Part shown: one piece after another, positions 5,016 to 25,927 of the stretch
Layout of the letters: each line of letters begins with the position of its first letter
How positions within the stretch are numbered: position 1 is the stretch's first letter
DNA from: Deltaproteobacteria bacterium
GTDB taxonomy: Bacteria; Desulfobacterota; Binatia; DP-6
Assembly: GCA_005879795.1 (NCBI GenBank)
Contig: VBKJ01000164.1
Coordinates: 1 to 45,900, forward strand
DNA length: 45,900 bases
Direction: 5' to 3'
Notes under the pieces: model-generated
The model's input: only the letters and a program-made list of their open reading frames with translations
The model's database searches: none
Told to the model about the DNA's origin: nothing
Made by a program: the position numbers and the translations under genes

Positions 5016-5801
5016 GTGCGCCTGCGCGACCGCGTCGCGATCATCACGGGGGCCGCGCAGGGCATCGGCAAGGCCTACGCGCTGCGCTTCGCGCGCGAGG
5101 GCGCACACGTCGTGGCCGCGGACCTCCGCGACGACCAGGCGCGCGCCGTGGCCACCGAGTGCGCGGCGCTCGGCCCCGAGGCGCTGGGCGCGCGCGTCGA
5201 CATCGCCGACGAGGCCAGCACGCGGGCGCTCGCCGAGGCGACCGTCGCGCGCTTCGGGCGCGTCGACGTGCTGGTCAACAACGCGGCCATCTACTACGAC
5301 CTCGACCGCACCGAGAACACGCTCGCCTACTTCAACCGCGTGCTCTCCGTGAACCTGACCGGCGCCTGGCTCATGAGCCGCGCCGTCGAGCGCTTCATGA
5401 AGCGGCAGCGAAAGGGGAAGATCATCCACCAGTCGTCGACCGCCGCCTATCTCGGCAACGTGGGGATGGTCGACACCGAGGATCCCGAGAAACCCATGCC
5501 GCCCTTCCACTACAGCATCGCCAAGATCGGCATCGCGGGCCTCACCAAGTACATGGCCGGCGCCCTCGGCCCGTGGGGCATCAACGTGAACGCGATCGCC
5601 CCGGGCGTCACCATGACCGAGGCGACCAGGAAGATCGTGCCGGAGGAGATCGCGAGCGCGCTCGTCATGTTCAGCGCGCTGCGCCGGGCGCTCCAGCCCG
5701 AGGACCTGACCGGGACGGCGGTTTTCCTCGCCTCCGCCGACTCCGACCTGATGACGGGTCAGGTGCTGGTGGTCGACGGCGGCATGATCATGCTCGGCTG
5801 A
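5016..5801 (+). CDS. Short-chain dehydrogenase/reductase (SDR), classical type
   Basis: A 261-residue Rossmann-fold oxidoreductase. TGAAQGIG at residues 11-18 binds the dinucleotide; VAADL suggests NAD(H) preference through the Asp after the second strand. NNAA follows near residue 90, then the active-site Ser in HQSSTAAYL and the YSIAK catalytic Tyr-Lys. The gap between Ser and Tyr holds an insertion (GNVGMVDTEDPEKPMPPFH), longer than the usual dozen residues, which may form a substrate lid. The C-terminus (GQVLVVDGGMIMLG) is canonical. The start is GTG 5016, 3 nt after the small ORF stop. Its place beside acyl-CoA catabolic genes suggests a hydroxyacyl or alcohol substrate; this is not shown. 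Confidence 0.9.
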   Translation: MRLRDRVAIITGAAQGIGKAYALRFAREGAHVVAADLRDDQARAVATECAALGPEALGARVDIADEASTRALAEATVARFGRVDVLVNNAAIYYDLDRTENTLAYFNRVLSVNLTGAWLMSRAVERFMKRQRKGKIIHQSSTAAYLGNVGMVDTEDPEKPMPPFHYSIAKIGIAGLTKYMAGALGPWGINVNAIAPGVTMTEATRKIVPEEIASALVMFSALRRALQPEDLTGTAVFLASADSDLMTGQVLVVDGGMIMLG

Positions 5802-5804
5802 GCC

Positions 5805-6082
5805 GACCCGAGACCTTGTCTCGGGTCAGGGACGGACCGAGAGTGCCGCCCGGTGGAGAAGGCCAACGGCGTGCCGCGGCCGGCGAAGCCGGCGCGGCAG
5901 ACGTTCCGGAGCGTGAGCGCGCGCCTGGAACGACGTCTCCGCAGCAGACGCCGATTGCCCCAGGCCCTCCGGTCCGGCACGTTTTGCCGCGCCGGCTTCG
6001 CCGGCCGCGGCACGGCGCTCGCGCCATGCGCCGAACGCGTCACGCTCGCTTCCGATTCCGACCCGAGACAAGGTCTCGGGTC
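5805..6082. repeat. 278-nt nested palindrome between convergent genes
   Basis: Both ends are 23-nt hairpins with GACCCGAGAC/GTCTCGGGTC arms and 3-nt loops (5805-5827 loop CTT; 6060-6082 loop AAG), and each is the reverse complement of the other. Inside, 29-nt arms at 5871-5899 and 5985-6013 are exact reverse complements. At the centre CGTCT (5934-5938) pairs with AGACG (5946-5950). All pairs share a centre near 5942-5943, so the whole segment can fold as one giant hairpin with some mismatched stretches. It fills nearly all of the space between the SDR stop (5801) and the amidohydrolase stop (6085). It may be a bidirectional terminator, a MITE or REP-like element, or a remnant of an inverted duplication. 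No coding capacity is evident. Confidence 0.9.
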
Positions 6083-6084
6083 GC

Positions 6085-7248
6085 TCAGGGGAACCAGCGG
6101 TCGAGCGTCCCCGTCGCCACCATCCGGACGTCGTCCTCGTCGAGCCCGCCGCTCGCCTTGCGGAAGCCGTTCAGGAGGTCCGGCGTCCCGTCGTAGTGCG
6201 GCCAGTCGGAGGCGAGCGCGACGTGGTCGGCGGGCAGGAACTCGAGGGCGATCTTCAGGTCGGTCGCCTCGCACGCCTCGACCGTCACCAGCATCTGGCG
6301 CTCGAAGATCTCCATCGGCGGCGTCTTCCACTCGGGCGCCTTCAAGCTCCCGAAGGCCTCGCGGTGCTCCTCGAAGCGCTCGAACATCGACGGGAGCCAG
6401 CCGACGCCGGCCTCGAGGATCATGGTGGGCATGCTCGGGAAGCGGTCGAACACCCCGCCCGCCATCATGTCGTAGAGCGTGTGCATCATGTCCATCGGGA
6501 AGCCGAGGCAGGAAGCGGCCATGATGTCGGGGAGCCGATAGCCTTTCGACGTCCCGTCCTGGTCCCACATGGGGAGCGGATGGAGGCCGAGCTTCAGCCC
6601 CGTGTCGACGATCGCCTGCCAGAGCGGGTCGAAGGAGCGATCCGAGTACCTCTTCCCGTACACCGGGTTGGTGCGGATGAAGACGGCGGGGAAGCCGCGT
6701 TCGGCGACGCGGTGCACCTCGGCGACCGCGGCGTCCACGTCGACCGTGGGCAGGGTCGCGACCGGGACGAGGCGCCCGCCCGAGCCGGCGCAGTAGTCGT
6801 CCAGGATCCAGTCGTTGTAGACGGCGCACACCGCCGGGGCGAGGTGCGGGAGGATCGTGCCGCCGGCCAGCATGAAGGTCGGATAGAGGACGGCGCGCGA
6901 CACGCCATGCGTGGTATTGAAGGCGAGCCGCTCGCGCCCGTCCATCGCCCAGCGCGGCGCATCGAGGATGGTGTGCTTCTCGCCCTCGGCGCCAGTGAAC
7001 ACGCGCTCGAGTGGCATCCCCATGGCGCACGAGAGCCCCATGTTGTCGAGCATGTCCTTCGGCTTCATGCCGCCGTGCATGACGGGGAGGTCGTCGATCT
7101 CGATACCGTAGATGCGCGAGCGAAAGACCCCCTCCGCGTCGCGATAGAAGCGCGGCGCGAGCGGACGGAGATCCTCCGGCAGGCGCTCCACCCAGAGGTC
7201 GCCGGGCTCGATGATGTGCCCGTCGGCGTCGGCGAGGTGCTCGATCAT
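6085..7248 (-). CDS. Amidohydrolase-2 family metal-dependent hydrolase (ACMSD-like fold)
   Basis: A 387-residue TIM-barrel amidohydrolase. The N-terminal metal motif is degenerate, DADGHIIEP (D-x-D-x-H in place of H-x-H), as in many members of this family. A mid-barrel His occurs in LGLHPLPM, and the C-terminal Asp is in ASDWPHYDGTPD. A family-typical ILEAGVGWLPSMFERF segment precedes it. Members decarboxylate or hydrolyse ring-derived acids and often sit in aromatic or steroid catabolic loci. ATG 7248 is the start. Upstream lie a TTGACA-17-TAACGC promoter and two ATCACTTGAT repeats shared with the MaoC operon, pointing to co-regulation. The gene ends 2 nt from the giant palindrome. Confidence 0.88.
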   Translation of the reverse strand: MIEHLADADGHIIEPGDLWVERLPEDLRPLAPRFYRDAEGVFRSRIYGIEIDDLPVMHGGMKPKDMLDNMGLSCAMGMPLERVFTGAEGEKHTILDAPRWAMDGRERLAFNTTHGVSRAVLYPTFMLAGGTILPHLAPAVCAVYNDWILDDYCAGSGGRLVPVATLPTVDVDAAVAEVHRVAERGFPAVFIRTNPVYGKRYSDRSFDPLWQAIVDTGLKLGLHPLPMWDQDGTSKGYRLPDIMAASCLGFPMDMMHTLYDMMAGGVFDRFPSMPTMILEAGVGWLPSMFERFEEHREAFGSLKAPEWKTPPMEIFERQMLVTVEACEATDLKIALEFLPADHVALASDWPHYDGTPDLLNGFRKASGGLDEDDVRMVATGTLDRWFP

Positions 7249-7395: not shown

Positions 7396-7734
7396 ATGCC
7401 GGGCCCGCGCTCGCCGGACGCCACCCACATCGAGAAGCTCACCGAGGTCGGTCGCTACGCGCTGGGTGTCGTGTGGGCAGACCGGCACGACAGCATCCTG
7501 CCCTTCCGGAGCCTGCGCCGCGCCTGCCCGTGCGAGACCTGCACGGCGGCGCCGCAGGCGGATCTGCCGCCCGAGGCGGAGCGTCTCGCGCGCGTCGAGG
7601 TGCTCGGCGACCGAAGCCTCTTCCTCGGCTGGGCCGACGGGCACGAGAGCGTGCTCCTGCTCGAGGAGGTGCGTGCGCTCTGCCGTTGCGCGCGCTGCGC
7701 CGGCGAGCCCGAGTACCCGATCTCGGGTCGCTAG
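7396..7734 (+). CDS. DUF971 / GBBH-like N-terminal domain protein with an internal duplication
   Basis: A 112-residue protein with two related halves: VVWADRHDSILPFRSLRRACPCETC and LGWADGHESVLLLEEVRALCRCARC (each given here only as a motif; residues about 25-48 and 77-100). The W-x-D-x-H-x-S pattern followed by LR-x-x-C-x-C-x-x-C marks DUF971, the small domain also found at the N-terminus of gamma-butyrobetaine hydroxylase. Zn binding by the Cys/His set is likely. Stand-alone DUF971 proteins are often linked to Fe-S or Mrp/ApbC contexts, but no such gene is adjacent. The TAG stop at 7732-7734 is the first three bases of a 36-nt palindrome. Confidence 0.85.
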   Translation: MPGPRSPDATHIEKLTEVGRYALGVVWADRHDSILPFRSLRRACPCETCTAAPQADLPPEAERLARVEVLGDRSLFLGWADGHESVLLLEEVRALCRCARCAGEPEYPISGR

Positions 7735-7767
7735 GAGGCCGTCCGGGTAATCCCGGACGGACTCCTA
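7732..7767. repeat. 36-nt palindrome, short member of the TAGGAGGCCGTCCGGG family
   Basis: TAGGAGGCCGTCCGGG (7732-7747), loop TAAT, then CCCGGACGGACTCCTA (7752-7767); one mismatch in a 16-bp stem. It lies between convergent genes and overlaps the DUF971 stop codon; the DUF4340 stop (7771-7769) begins 1 nt beyond it. A 117-nt relative with the same arms is at 18580-18696. It has no T-tract, so intrinsic termination is possible but not standard. Confidence 0.92.
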
Positions 7768-7768
7768 G

Positions 7769-8281
7769 CTAGCGCGGCCCGTCGCGGTTGAAGAAGATGC
7801 GCTCCAGGTCGGTCAGGAACCCCGTGCCGACCTCGAGGACGCGGGGATCGCCCAAGCGGCGCGCGTAGAGGGCGCTGGCCCCCGCGTTCATGTCGCCGAT
7901 CACCAGCCGGCGCGCGCCGCGCGCGGTCGCCACCTCGACCGTGCCGCGCGGCCGCTCGAGGCCGAACGACGCCGCGTCGCGGCTGCGAAACGAGTCCACG
8001 GCGCGCAGCCCGACCACCGCCGTCAGGAGATCGTCGAGTGCCTCGGCTGTCCCCGCCGACGCGCGCCGGCCGTCGATCTCCCAGCCCTCGGCCCTCCGCC
8101 GGGCGCTGAAGCGCCGCCCCTCGAGCACCACGTCGATGCCGCGCACCGCGTGCCTCCCGACGCCGAAGACACGGTGCCCGCGCACCGCGAGCTGACCCCG
8201 CGGGCGCACCGGCGCGCGCACCAGCAGAACGAGCACGGTGCCCAGGGCGACGAGGGCCGCGAGGACCAGCGTGCGGCGCAG
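7769..8281 (-). CDS. DUF4340 domain membrane-anchored protein, last gene of the Gld-type ABC operon
   Basis: The conventional start is GTG 8236 (155 residues), but in-frame coding continues upstream to CTG 8281. That extension supplies LRRTLVLAALVALGTVLVLLV, the N-terminal membrane helix that DUF4340 proteins normally carry. No ATG, GTG or TTG exists in that stretch, so a CTG start giving 170 residues is my choice. The rest shows an alternating strand pattern, with the DUF4340-like segments GIDVVLEGRRFSARRRAEGW, a two-domain beta architecture and LVIGDMNAGASALYARRLG. DUF4340 genes commonly follow GldG-like ABC genes, as here (4-nt gap). The protein probably sits on the periplasmic side of the exporter. 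It is shorter than typical multi-repeat DUF4340 proteins. Confidence 0.75.
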   Translation of the reverse strand: MRRTLVLAALVALGTVLVLLVRAPVRPRGQLAVRGHRVFGVGRHAVRGIDVVLEGRRFSARRRAEGWEIDGRRASAGTAEALDDLLTAVVGLRAVDSFRSRDAASFGLERPRGTVEVATARGARRLVIGDMNAGASALYARRLGDPRVLEVGTGFLTDLERIFFNRDGPR

Positions 8282-17736: not shown

Positions 17737-18582
17737 ATGCGCATCCTGGTCGCCGTCGTATTGGTCCTGGCCCTCGGATCGGCCGCCGGGGCCGAGTGTC
17801 CTCCCGACTGCATCGCGGGCGGAGGGCCCGCGGCAACCGACTGCTTCGTCGCCTGGAGCGGCATGCAGGCCATGAGCGAAGCGTGCACCGACGGTGAGGC
17901 CTGCGACATCGACGGGAAGGTCGACGGCGTCTGCACGCTCGGGATCCAGGGTTGCATCAACGTCCCGGGCCTGGGTCCGTGCATGCCGGCGGGCCTGAGC
18001 GGACCGCCGACCGTCACGCCGAGCAAGGACCCCACGGGGCAGGCGCTCGCCGCCGCGCTCGACGCGCTCGACTCGAGCACCCACGGCTGCACCCCGCCGG
18101 GGCTCGGCCTGCCGCTGCGGCTCTCGCTCGCGGGCATCAGGCCCGGCAAGTCGCGCCTCACCGTCACGGCGTCCTCGGGCGGCAAGCGCGACCGCGACCG
18201 CCTGCGCCTCACCTGCACGCCCGGCGCGGCGCAGCCGAGCTTCGCGCGCGACGTGCAGCCGATCTTCACGTCGCGCTGCGCGATCCCGAGCTGCCATACC
18301 GGCCCAGCGGTGAGCGCGAGCGGCATGCAGAGCCTCGACGCGGCCGTGGCGTGGGCGAGCAGCGTCAACGTCCGCGCCACCACCGGCAAGCTGCTGCGCG
18401 TGAAGCCGGGTAGCATCAGGGGCAGCCAGGTCGCGCACCGCGTCCTCGGCCAGGGACTGCCCCGCGGCGGCACCCTGATGCCGCAGGGCTGCCCCGGCTT
18501 CCCCCCGGCGGGTGGTTGCCTCACCGAGCCCGAGATCTTCACCATCCTCGCCTGGATCGCCGAGGGCGCGCCGAACAACTAG
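17737..18582 (+). CDS. Secreted Cys-rich protein with a C-x4-CH cytochrome-like domain
   Basis: A 281-residue protein with signal peptide RILVAVVLVLALGSAAGA. A Cys-rich N-terminal module follows (ECPPDCIAGGG, TDCFVAW, EACTDGEACDIDGKVDGVC). After a short beta-like segment (LPLRLSLAGIRPGKSRLTV) comes a C-terminal domain beginning FARDVQPIFTSRCAIPSCHTG, with C-x4-C-H in place of CxxCH; the terminal LTEPEIFTILAWIAEGAP matches cytochrome-like ends. The C-x4-CH variant is known from haem-binding PSD/PPC-type domains, but whether haem is attached is unproven. ATG 17737 is preferred over 17698 because it begins the signal peptide. Its TAG stop is the first three bases of the 117-nt palindrome, beyond which a dihaem cytochrome gene converges. 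Confidence 0.8.
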   Translation: MRILVAVVLVLALGSAAGAECPPDCIAGGGPAATDCFVAWSGMQAMSEACTDGEACDIDGKVDGVCTLGIQGCINVPGLGPCMPAGLSGPPTVTPSKDPTGQALAAALDALDSSTHGCTPPGLGLPLRLSLAGIRPGKSRLTVTASSGGKRDRDRLRLTCTPGAAQPSFARDVQPIFTSRCAIPSCHTGPAVSASGMQSLDAAVAWASSVNVRATTGKLLRVKPGSIRGSQVAHRVLGQGLPRGGTLMPQGCPGFPPAGGCLTEPEIFTILAWIAEGAPNN

Positions 18583-18696
18583 GAGGCCGTCCGGGTAGTC
18601 ATGGCGGCTGCGGCGAACGATCCGGGGGCTGCGAGCGGCGTGCTCGCTCCCCGGCTCGTTCGCCTCGCTCACCATGATTACCCGGACGGACTCCTA
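18580..18696. repeat. 117-nt palindrome, long member of the TAGGAGGCCGTCCGGG family
   Basis: Outer arms TAGGAGGCCGTCCGGGTA (18580-18597) and TACCCGGACGGACTCCTA (18679-18696) pair with one mismatch. Inner arms GGCGAACGATCCGGGG (18612-18627) and CCCCGGCTCGTTCGCC (18649-18664) also pair with one mismatch. At the tip GCGAGC (18631-18636) and GCTCGC (18642-18647) close a 5-nt loop. Both convergent genes use the outermost bases as stop codons: TAG 18580-18582 for the secreted protein, and the reverse-strand TAG 18696-18694 for the cytochrome. The 36-nt copy at 7732 has the same outer arms without the inner part. Confidence 0.93.
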
Positions 18697-19512
18697 GCGA
18701 ATCAGCGGCCGCCAGGTGCCTGCCCGGATCCAGCGCACGTAGGCGGCGAGCGCATCCACGTCCATCTCGGGGATGAAGCGCTGGAAGGCGGGCATCCTGA
18801 TCGCCTGCCGCTTGAAGAACCGGCCGCCGATCGGGTGCTCGGAGACCCGCGCGAGCTCGCCCCTGGCGATCCAGCTGCGCAGCTCTTCCTCGCTGCGCAC
18901 CAGGTCGTCGAAGTCGGCGCCCCAGAAGCCGGGCACGTAGCCCTTGAACGAGCCCGGGTTCCGCACCCCCCCGGCGCCGAGCGGGCCGTGGCAGGCGAAG
19001 CAGCCGAGGTCGCTCGCCAGCTCGGCGCCCCGCTGCGCCAGCGCTTCGTCGGGCAGGATCTGCCCCGAGGCGGCGCGCAGGTAGGCGACCAGGTCGTCGA
19101 CCTGCGCGGCGGTCACGAAGCTCCGGTAGGCCGGCATGCGGAGCGCTGCCTTCTCCACCCGCGCGCGGTAGTCGGGATCCTCGCGCTTGCGGCGCGGCGC
19201 GCCGTCGAGCACGTACTCGCGGAGGTCGTCGGTCGTCTTCACGTACATCATCTGCGTGCGCTCGGTGAACGCGGGCACCGTCCCCTCCTCGCTGCCCGGG
19301 TTCTTCGTCCCGCCGCCGCCGCCCGGTCCGTGGCACGAGAAGCACCCCAGCTCGGCCGCCAGCCGCTGCCCGCGCCGCGCCGGCGTCTCCTCGAGCGCGA
19401 ACAGCCGGACACGCACGGCCGGATAGGAGAGCCAGCCCGTCTCGACCACCGCCAGGGCAACGAGCGCTCGCCCGAGCGCGCGGCGCAGCCGGGGCATCCG
19501 GTTCACTTCCAT
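18694..19512 (-). CDS. Membrane-anchored dihaem c-type cytochrome with tandem domains
   Basis: A 272-residue protein with a single N-terminal anchor or uncleaved signal (about residues 13-31, LGRALVALAVVETGWLSYP) and two homologous cytochrome domains. Haem motifs are CFSCHG (about 57) and CFACHG (about 171), each followed by a GG-x-K/R-NPGS segment; probable distal Met ligands are ALRMPAYRSF and AIRMPAFQRF. The domain duplication is plain: both halves share LGCF-CHG, NPGS and RMPA-RF. It would carry electrons in the periplasm. ATG 19512 is used; Met6 is an alternative. It is divergent from a LolA-like gene with a shared 46-nt gap, and the partner oxidoreductase is not in the window. Confidence 0.92.
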   Translation of the reverse strand: MEVNRMPRLRRALGRALVALAVVETGWLSYPAVRVRLFALEETPARRGQRLAAELGCFSCHGPGGGGGTKNPGSEEGTVPAFTERTQMMYVKTTDDLREYVLDGAPRRKREDPDYRARVEKAALRMPAYRSFVTAAQVDDLVAYLRAASGQILPDEALAQRGAELASDLGCFACHGPLGAGGVRNPGSFKGYVPGFWGADFDDLVRSEEELRSWIARGELARVSEHPIGGRFFKRQAIRMPAFQRFIPEMDVDALAAYVRWIRAGTWRPLIR

Positions 19513-25844: not shown

Positions 25845-25855
25845 TGCAAGACGAC

Positions 25856-25889
25856 AGGAGCCCTCACCCGCGCGCGGGTGAGGGCTCCT
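25856..25889. repeat. Perfect 34-nt palindrome between dnaK and dnaJ
   Basis: AGGAGCCCTCACCCGCG (25856-25872) is followed with no spacer by its exact reverse complement CGCGGGTGAGGGCTCCT (25873-25889). It lies in the 83-nt gap between the dnaK stop (25928) and the dnaJ start (25844). A hairpin here could attenuate or terminate transcription, or protect the dnaK end of the mRNA, lowering dnaJ relative to dnaK. There is no T-tract downstream on the minus strand. Its AGGAG ends resemble the TAGGAG ends of the two related palindromes, though the cores differ. Confidence 0.93.
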
Positions 25890-25927
25890 CTACTCTCTGC
25901 ACCGGGTCACCGCAAGCGAGAACGGGC

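Follow-up and report, generated by a model that had tools for sequence, protein, structure and literature searches.

In the part of the published account drawn on here (PMC3733652), REPs are described as occurring mainly between genes that are either unidirectional or convergent, with opposed dimers being frequent, and the termini of GTAG REPs often supply a TAG stop codon. The elements described below resemble the GTAG and CGTC REP superfamilies of that account in being tagged hairpin repeats in opposed (head-to-head) dimers, in lying downstream of coding regions between convergent and unidirectional genes and, as far as GTAG REPs are concerned, in having a terminus that provides a TAG stop, but their tag is a different one, CTAGGAG, standing two bases from the stem (PMC3733652). 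They also differ in size: a REP unit is given there as 20-40 bp with a stem of 5-13 bp, whereas an arm of the main family considered here (family A) is ~100 nt long and has two hairpins (PMC3733652). The likeness to REPINs with their RAYTs, in the excerpts of the two reports used (PMC3116915, PMC8266576), is that two inverted hairpins move as one unit; the difference is that no repeat-flanked RAYT was found here, the Y1 proteins of related genomes scoring below the cut-off and one genome (G003) having none. E. coli has inverted repeats after its stop codons, which in the portion of the source used (PMC6060812) are mostly parts of intrinsic terminators; they share this position with our elements, but the latter have no U-tract and show multi-copy homology.

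Because the tag and, for family A, the size differ from those of REPs, we call the elements REP-like, and not GTAG/CGTC REPs or RAYT-linked REPINs. MITEs and ERIC-type elements are imperfect palindromes, intergenic and non-coding. Family A shares these features and the size range with them, but it has hairpin ends and no partner transposon was found for it. No published account of a CTAGGAG-tagged repeat was found in the literature searched, most subscription journals lying outside its scope. The element from which this analysis started is located in a window of 45,900 nucleotides, the whole stretch of DNA analysed, from a Deltaproteobacteria bacterium. We consider it probable that it is a palindromic insertion element, REP/REPIN-like and non-autonomous, which has settled between two convergent stop codons.

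The palindrome and its junction in the window

The complete family A element occupies positions 5804-6083, with no strand assigned, and consists of two inverted arms of ~100 nt around a centre of ~77 nt, either half being built as an outer hairpin, a linker and an inner hairpin. The outer hairpin of the left arm (5805-5827, plus strand; identified by sequence, fold and covariation) is 23 nt long and reads GACCCGAGAC-CTT-GTCTCGGGTC, and that of the right arm (6060-6082, minus strand, 23 nt), GACCCGAGAC-AAG-GTCTCGGGTC, is its exact reverse complement. The inner hairpins of 29 nt, at 5871-5899 (plus strand; identified by sequence, inverted-pair search and covariation) and 5985-6013 (minus strand), are likewise exact reverse complements of each other, and each is by itself a hairpin. 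Both inverted pairs found, 5862-5899/5985-6022 (92% identity) and 5804-5836/6051-6083 (88%), have a common centre. The preliminary description had claimed the matching terminal hairpins, the matching internal arms and the single centre, and was right on all three. It had also spoken of a 278-nt nested palindrome with hairpins as its termini; the nesting and the hairpin ends stand, but the palindrome is not perfect. Outside the hairpins the two arms are only 59% identical, and the palindrome is therefore nested and imperfect; it is not a single perfect 278-nt hairpin. The self-complementarity of each hairpin means that a second arm, being inverted, pairs with the first automatically. Folding of a 298-nt stretch gave -134 kcal/mol as DNA (z -11.7) and -220 kcal/mol as RNA (z -12.6), and none of 200 shuffles was equally stable in either case. 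The palindrome is real and far beyond chance. No intrinsic terminator (stem-loop plus T run) was found in 5600-6300, and there is no U-tract. A search of Rfam with the element returned matches solely far below gathering scores, and the plasmid and phage collections contained no match.

As had been stated earlier, the palindrome fills the gap between two convergent genes. The short-chain dehydrogenase gene (5016-5801, plus strand, PF13561) ends with a TGA stop (5799-5801) 2 nt before the element, and the TGA stop of the amidohydrolase gene (6085-7248, minus strand, PF04909; stop at 6085-6087) starts 1 nt after it, so that the element occupies the 283 nt between the stops. The same junction is arranged in other ways in related genomes: in G001 and G003 an extra gene separates dehydrogenase and amidohydrolase; the orthologous junction of G004 (L231, 1961-2340) contains a hairpin-rich spacer of another sequence, and there the end of the dehydrogenase is not the same either; and in G002, G005 and G006 no matching dehydrogenase end was found beside the amidohydrolase. 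No clean empty site for the window's own junction was present among the related genomes compared.

Family A in related genomes

The search for copies with common ends, which the preliminary description had rightly suggested, uncovered a multi-copy family, a high-copy extragenic palindrome in the relatives of the source organism, which are uncultured soil bacteria. Matches to the element were found in 15 of 38 genomes, with 59 in G002, 49 in G003, 62 in G005 and 46 in G006, numbers in which one copy may score twice, once on each strand. The pattern of its ends exceeded the reversed control in the same genomes (81 vs 3 in G002, 71 vs 3 in G005, 44 vs 4 in G003 and 38 vs 3 in G006). The own genome shows no such excess (5 vs 5) and contains one full family A copy only. 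The pattern scan of genomes (119 stretches) also picked up unrelated organisms in which a hairpin of the same sequence occurs by chance, and these were not counted as copies. A search with an arm profile gave 202 unit hits, or 150 distinct units after removal of duplicate loci, 75 per strand. These form 58 full pairs, from which the window itself (L001) was excluded, and the outer hairpins are on the outside in all 58; the remaining 34 units are unpaired, several being truncated by contig ends or internal deletions. Elements of family A range from ~190 to 410 nt, and shortened derivatives are frequent. The earlier remark that palindromes of this length are rare because they are unstable is too strong: the elements are common in relatives, and their arms are too unlike to form a perfect long hairpin, even if shortened forms are often seen. 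In G002, one subfamily comprises 19 copies of ~323 nt with identities of 93.2-99.7% (median 97.2%) and has therefore spread recently.

As in REPINs, two inverted hairpin repeats constitute the unit, and the types of arms travel together. Averaged over 17 elements, the two linkers within an element are 62% alike, and the closest linker of 32 of the 34 arms tested belongs to another element and not to the opposite arm. It follows that both arms have long travelled as a pair, which argues against a fold-back artefact. Both hairpins are, as judged from the aligned arms, maintained by compensatory change. In 46 arms, picked by hand from the fetched loci out of the 150 units, 99.1% of the cells of the two hairpins are standard pairs, and 7 of the 23 hairpin pairs have changed on both sides; none of 500 shuffles equalled the real arms in percentage paired, in double changes or in score, a single shuffle matched them in the number of pair types, and alignments that were slid were only 32-42% paired.

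A profile of 110 ends, from which three loci with irregular ends (L039, L134, L142) were omitted, as they were from the table of 4-mers, consists of CTAGGAG, two variable bases and then the stem, so that an element typically runs CTAGGAG...CTCCTAG; no GTAG or CGTC tag appears in this profile, and the bases beyond the tag are not conserved. Among full copies, 36 of 53 have convergent genes on their two sides, 16 have a single gene end beside them and one has none, as determined by a codon-usage score that was derived from these loci by training (5 of the 58 pairs were dropped, their flanks being too short); among element-free neighbours in 27 sequences, 18 of 151 are convergent. In 26 of the 36 convergent copies both stops are located <=12 nt from the element. 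The TAG at the conserved place that faces the incoming gene is the stop codon of this gene in 37 of 47 cases, where a random frame would give one third. Of 55 family A copies, only 17 have CTAG at the expected place on both ends, and none has another common 4-mer on both sides, which would prove duplication of a target. At CTAG itself duplication and an inverted end are indistinguishable because CTAG is its own reverse complement. The window's own family A copy abuts TGA stops and has no CTAG. Throughout the window (1-45900) CTAG is strongly avoided, 17 sites being present where shuffles predict 53.

Family A copies are, by comparison of assembled loci, present or absent at orthologous junctions. 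When 17 family A junctions were tested across seven family genomes, a relative was found to have both genes joined without the element, separated by no more than about 60 nt, at 12 of them (L155, L208, L139, L047, L185, L136, L003, L048, L167, L202, L120 and L065). One more junction (L063) gave a single spanning match in one search and one flank only in the other, and no simple empty site was found in the seven genomes for L044, L050, L056 and L058. Such joined, element-free gene pairs indicate that the elements are most likely insertions. Some empty sites have overlapping convergent stops: CTAG at L208 in G005, CTAG at L155 in G000, where the empty site belongs to another copy of the gene pair, and CTAA at L185 in G006. 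At three others (L120, L202, L048) the stops in the relatives are TGA and stand a few bases from each other. G006 contains another family A copy (L039) at the L155 junction and a one-armed relic at the L003 junction. An unrelated palindromic repeat occupies the L139 and L185 junctions in G005 and the L044 junction in G006, and junctions of this type therefore receive several kinds of repeats. Another family of palindromic repeats of ~110 nt, with GAGGGGC...GCCCCTC and CCCGGCGGGCGAAGCCCGCCGGG hairpins, occurs at junctions of this type in both G005 and G006, in the middle of loci L276, L284 and L277.

Proposed mode of insertion and alternative origins

If the window element is a REP/REPIN-like insertion, as we favour, an enzyme recognising single strands would read the hairpin together with the adjacent CTAG-GAG tag and insert the element at CTAG, typically a TAG stop. 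The best target would then be a pair of convergent TAG stops overlapping at CTAG, and, with CTAG left on either side of the element, each gene would retain its stop. Against CTAG as the insertion target stand the TGA stops of some empty sites, the absence of CTAG from the window copy and the limited number of copies with CTAG at both ends. Hairpins placed just downstream of both stops could act as a two-way barrier at the 3' ends or as mRNA stabilisers, a role suggested by position and fold. Elements of this kind would occupy the least harmful site of a compact genome, the common end of convergent genes, where either gene keeps its own stop with a strong hairpin behind it, and the natural pairs of filled and empty sites could be used to test whether REP-like repeats insulate convergent transcripts or are merely tolerated. 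The elements also pose a concrete question, namely which enzyme moves CTAGGAG-tagged repeats.

RAYTs were considered as partners. RAYT-like Y1 proteins are encoded by six of the seven family genomes (G001, G002, G004, G005, G006 and G000, in the last of which the gene is split across two frames), and the best of them scores 47 bits against the NCBIfam model of REP-associated transposases, whose cut-off is 80. Such genes are absent from G003 despite its many copies of the element, and at none of 22 Y1 loci does the gene have an evident copy of the element next to it, the arm profile giving two weak matches only at these loci (E 0.019 and 0.1); RAYTs were rejected as partners on these grounds. 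Separately, the multi-copy Y1 genes (L285, L291, L300, L304, L308, L313) were seen to have a common promoter-like leader, TTGACA...TATTAT, in mostly different surroundings, and many Y1 copies in G002 and G006 are fragmentary.

An origin of the elements as MITEs of a DDE transposon, IS5-like, with the transposase elsewhere or lost, is unlikely in our opinion. The terminal inverted repeats and the size of ~190-410 nt are what such an origin predicts, and since IS5 targets YTAR with a 4-bp duplication, the CTAG or CTAA of some element-free sites suits it as well. An IS4/IS5-type partner was, however, searched for and rejected: PF01609 (DDE_Tnp_1), the only DDE family covered by the search, has no match in G000, G003 and G005, one in G002 and two in G006, and among the matches listed no two element ends are spaced by 0.6-3 kb, as those of a transposon sharing the terminal repeats would be. 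MAGs often lose multi-copy IS. The compensatory changes in the terminal hairpins also count against a MITE, suggesting a need for folding and not recognition of the double strand.

Host genomes might instead have built the palindromes as bidirectional terminators or 3'-end structures of convergent genes, selected and not mobile. This proposal, which we hold to be quite improbable, would account for the site between stops, the excess of convergent junctions, the maintained hairpins and the fact that more than one unrelated family of palindromes is found at sites of this type, but not for near-identical copies with a conserved two-arm plan at unrelated loci, nor for orthologous junctions that lack the element, and a U-tract is missing. 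An assembly or fold-back artefact, a concern of the preliminary description, might be considered because the genome is in 280 contigs and long inverted repeats can be misassembled. It is hardly credible given that the arms differ from each other and nearly all of those tested are nearest to an arm of another element, and that the identical two-armed architecture is found in other assemblies.

Family B and other tagged repeats

The window contains two further elements, no strand being assigned to either, which belong to a second family (family B) with the tag of family A and a different stem. The first, at 7731-7768, is a minimal form of 38 nt, CTAGGAG, a single hairpin and CTCCTAG, and is the sole element here within the 20-40 bp size of REPs; it is flanked by convergent genes at 7396-7734 (plus strand) and 7769-8236 (minus strand). 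The second, at 18579-18697, is a shortened form of 119 nt; two convergent ORFs, one ending at 18582 (plus strand) and the other at 18694 (minus strand), have their TAG stops within its terminal CTAGs. Elements of family A or B are present at three of the four called convergent junctions of the window. Of the CTAG sites counted in the window, 5 of 17 lie within or right by the two family B elements. A pattern search for family B gave 46 matches, not all of them elements, as the reversed control gave 14; for eight sites the locus had been fetched and the two ends matched. Five of the eight extracted are other copies of 178-196 nt in the own genome, up to 99.4% identical. Seven junctions of family B were prepared, and the search covered four of them.

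A repeat of 75 nt (flanking CTAGs included) in the MAG FCS_M_Myxococcota_02 starts with CTAGCAGGCC and ends with CAGCTAG, and 19 of its 21 matched copies have CTAG on both sides. The ends within the CTAGs are not mutually inverted in this repeat, so that its CTAG is better explained by duplication of a target than as part of an inverted end. We put forward only tentatively, as the less likely case, that families A and B and the 75-nt repeat make up a further REP-like superfamily, tagged with CTAGGAG or CTAGCAG, whose putative enzyme would split stop codons, above all the CTAG of overlapping TAG stops, and leave the genes undamaged. A near-perfect inverted repeat of 48 nt was also noticed at 25849-25896, with arms 25849-25872 and 25873-25896 (88%) and a GGAGCCCTCACCCGCG core, possibly one more hairpin of this general type.
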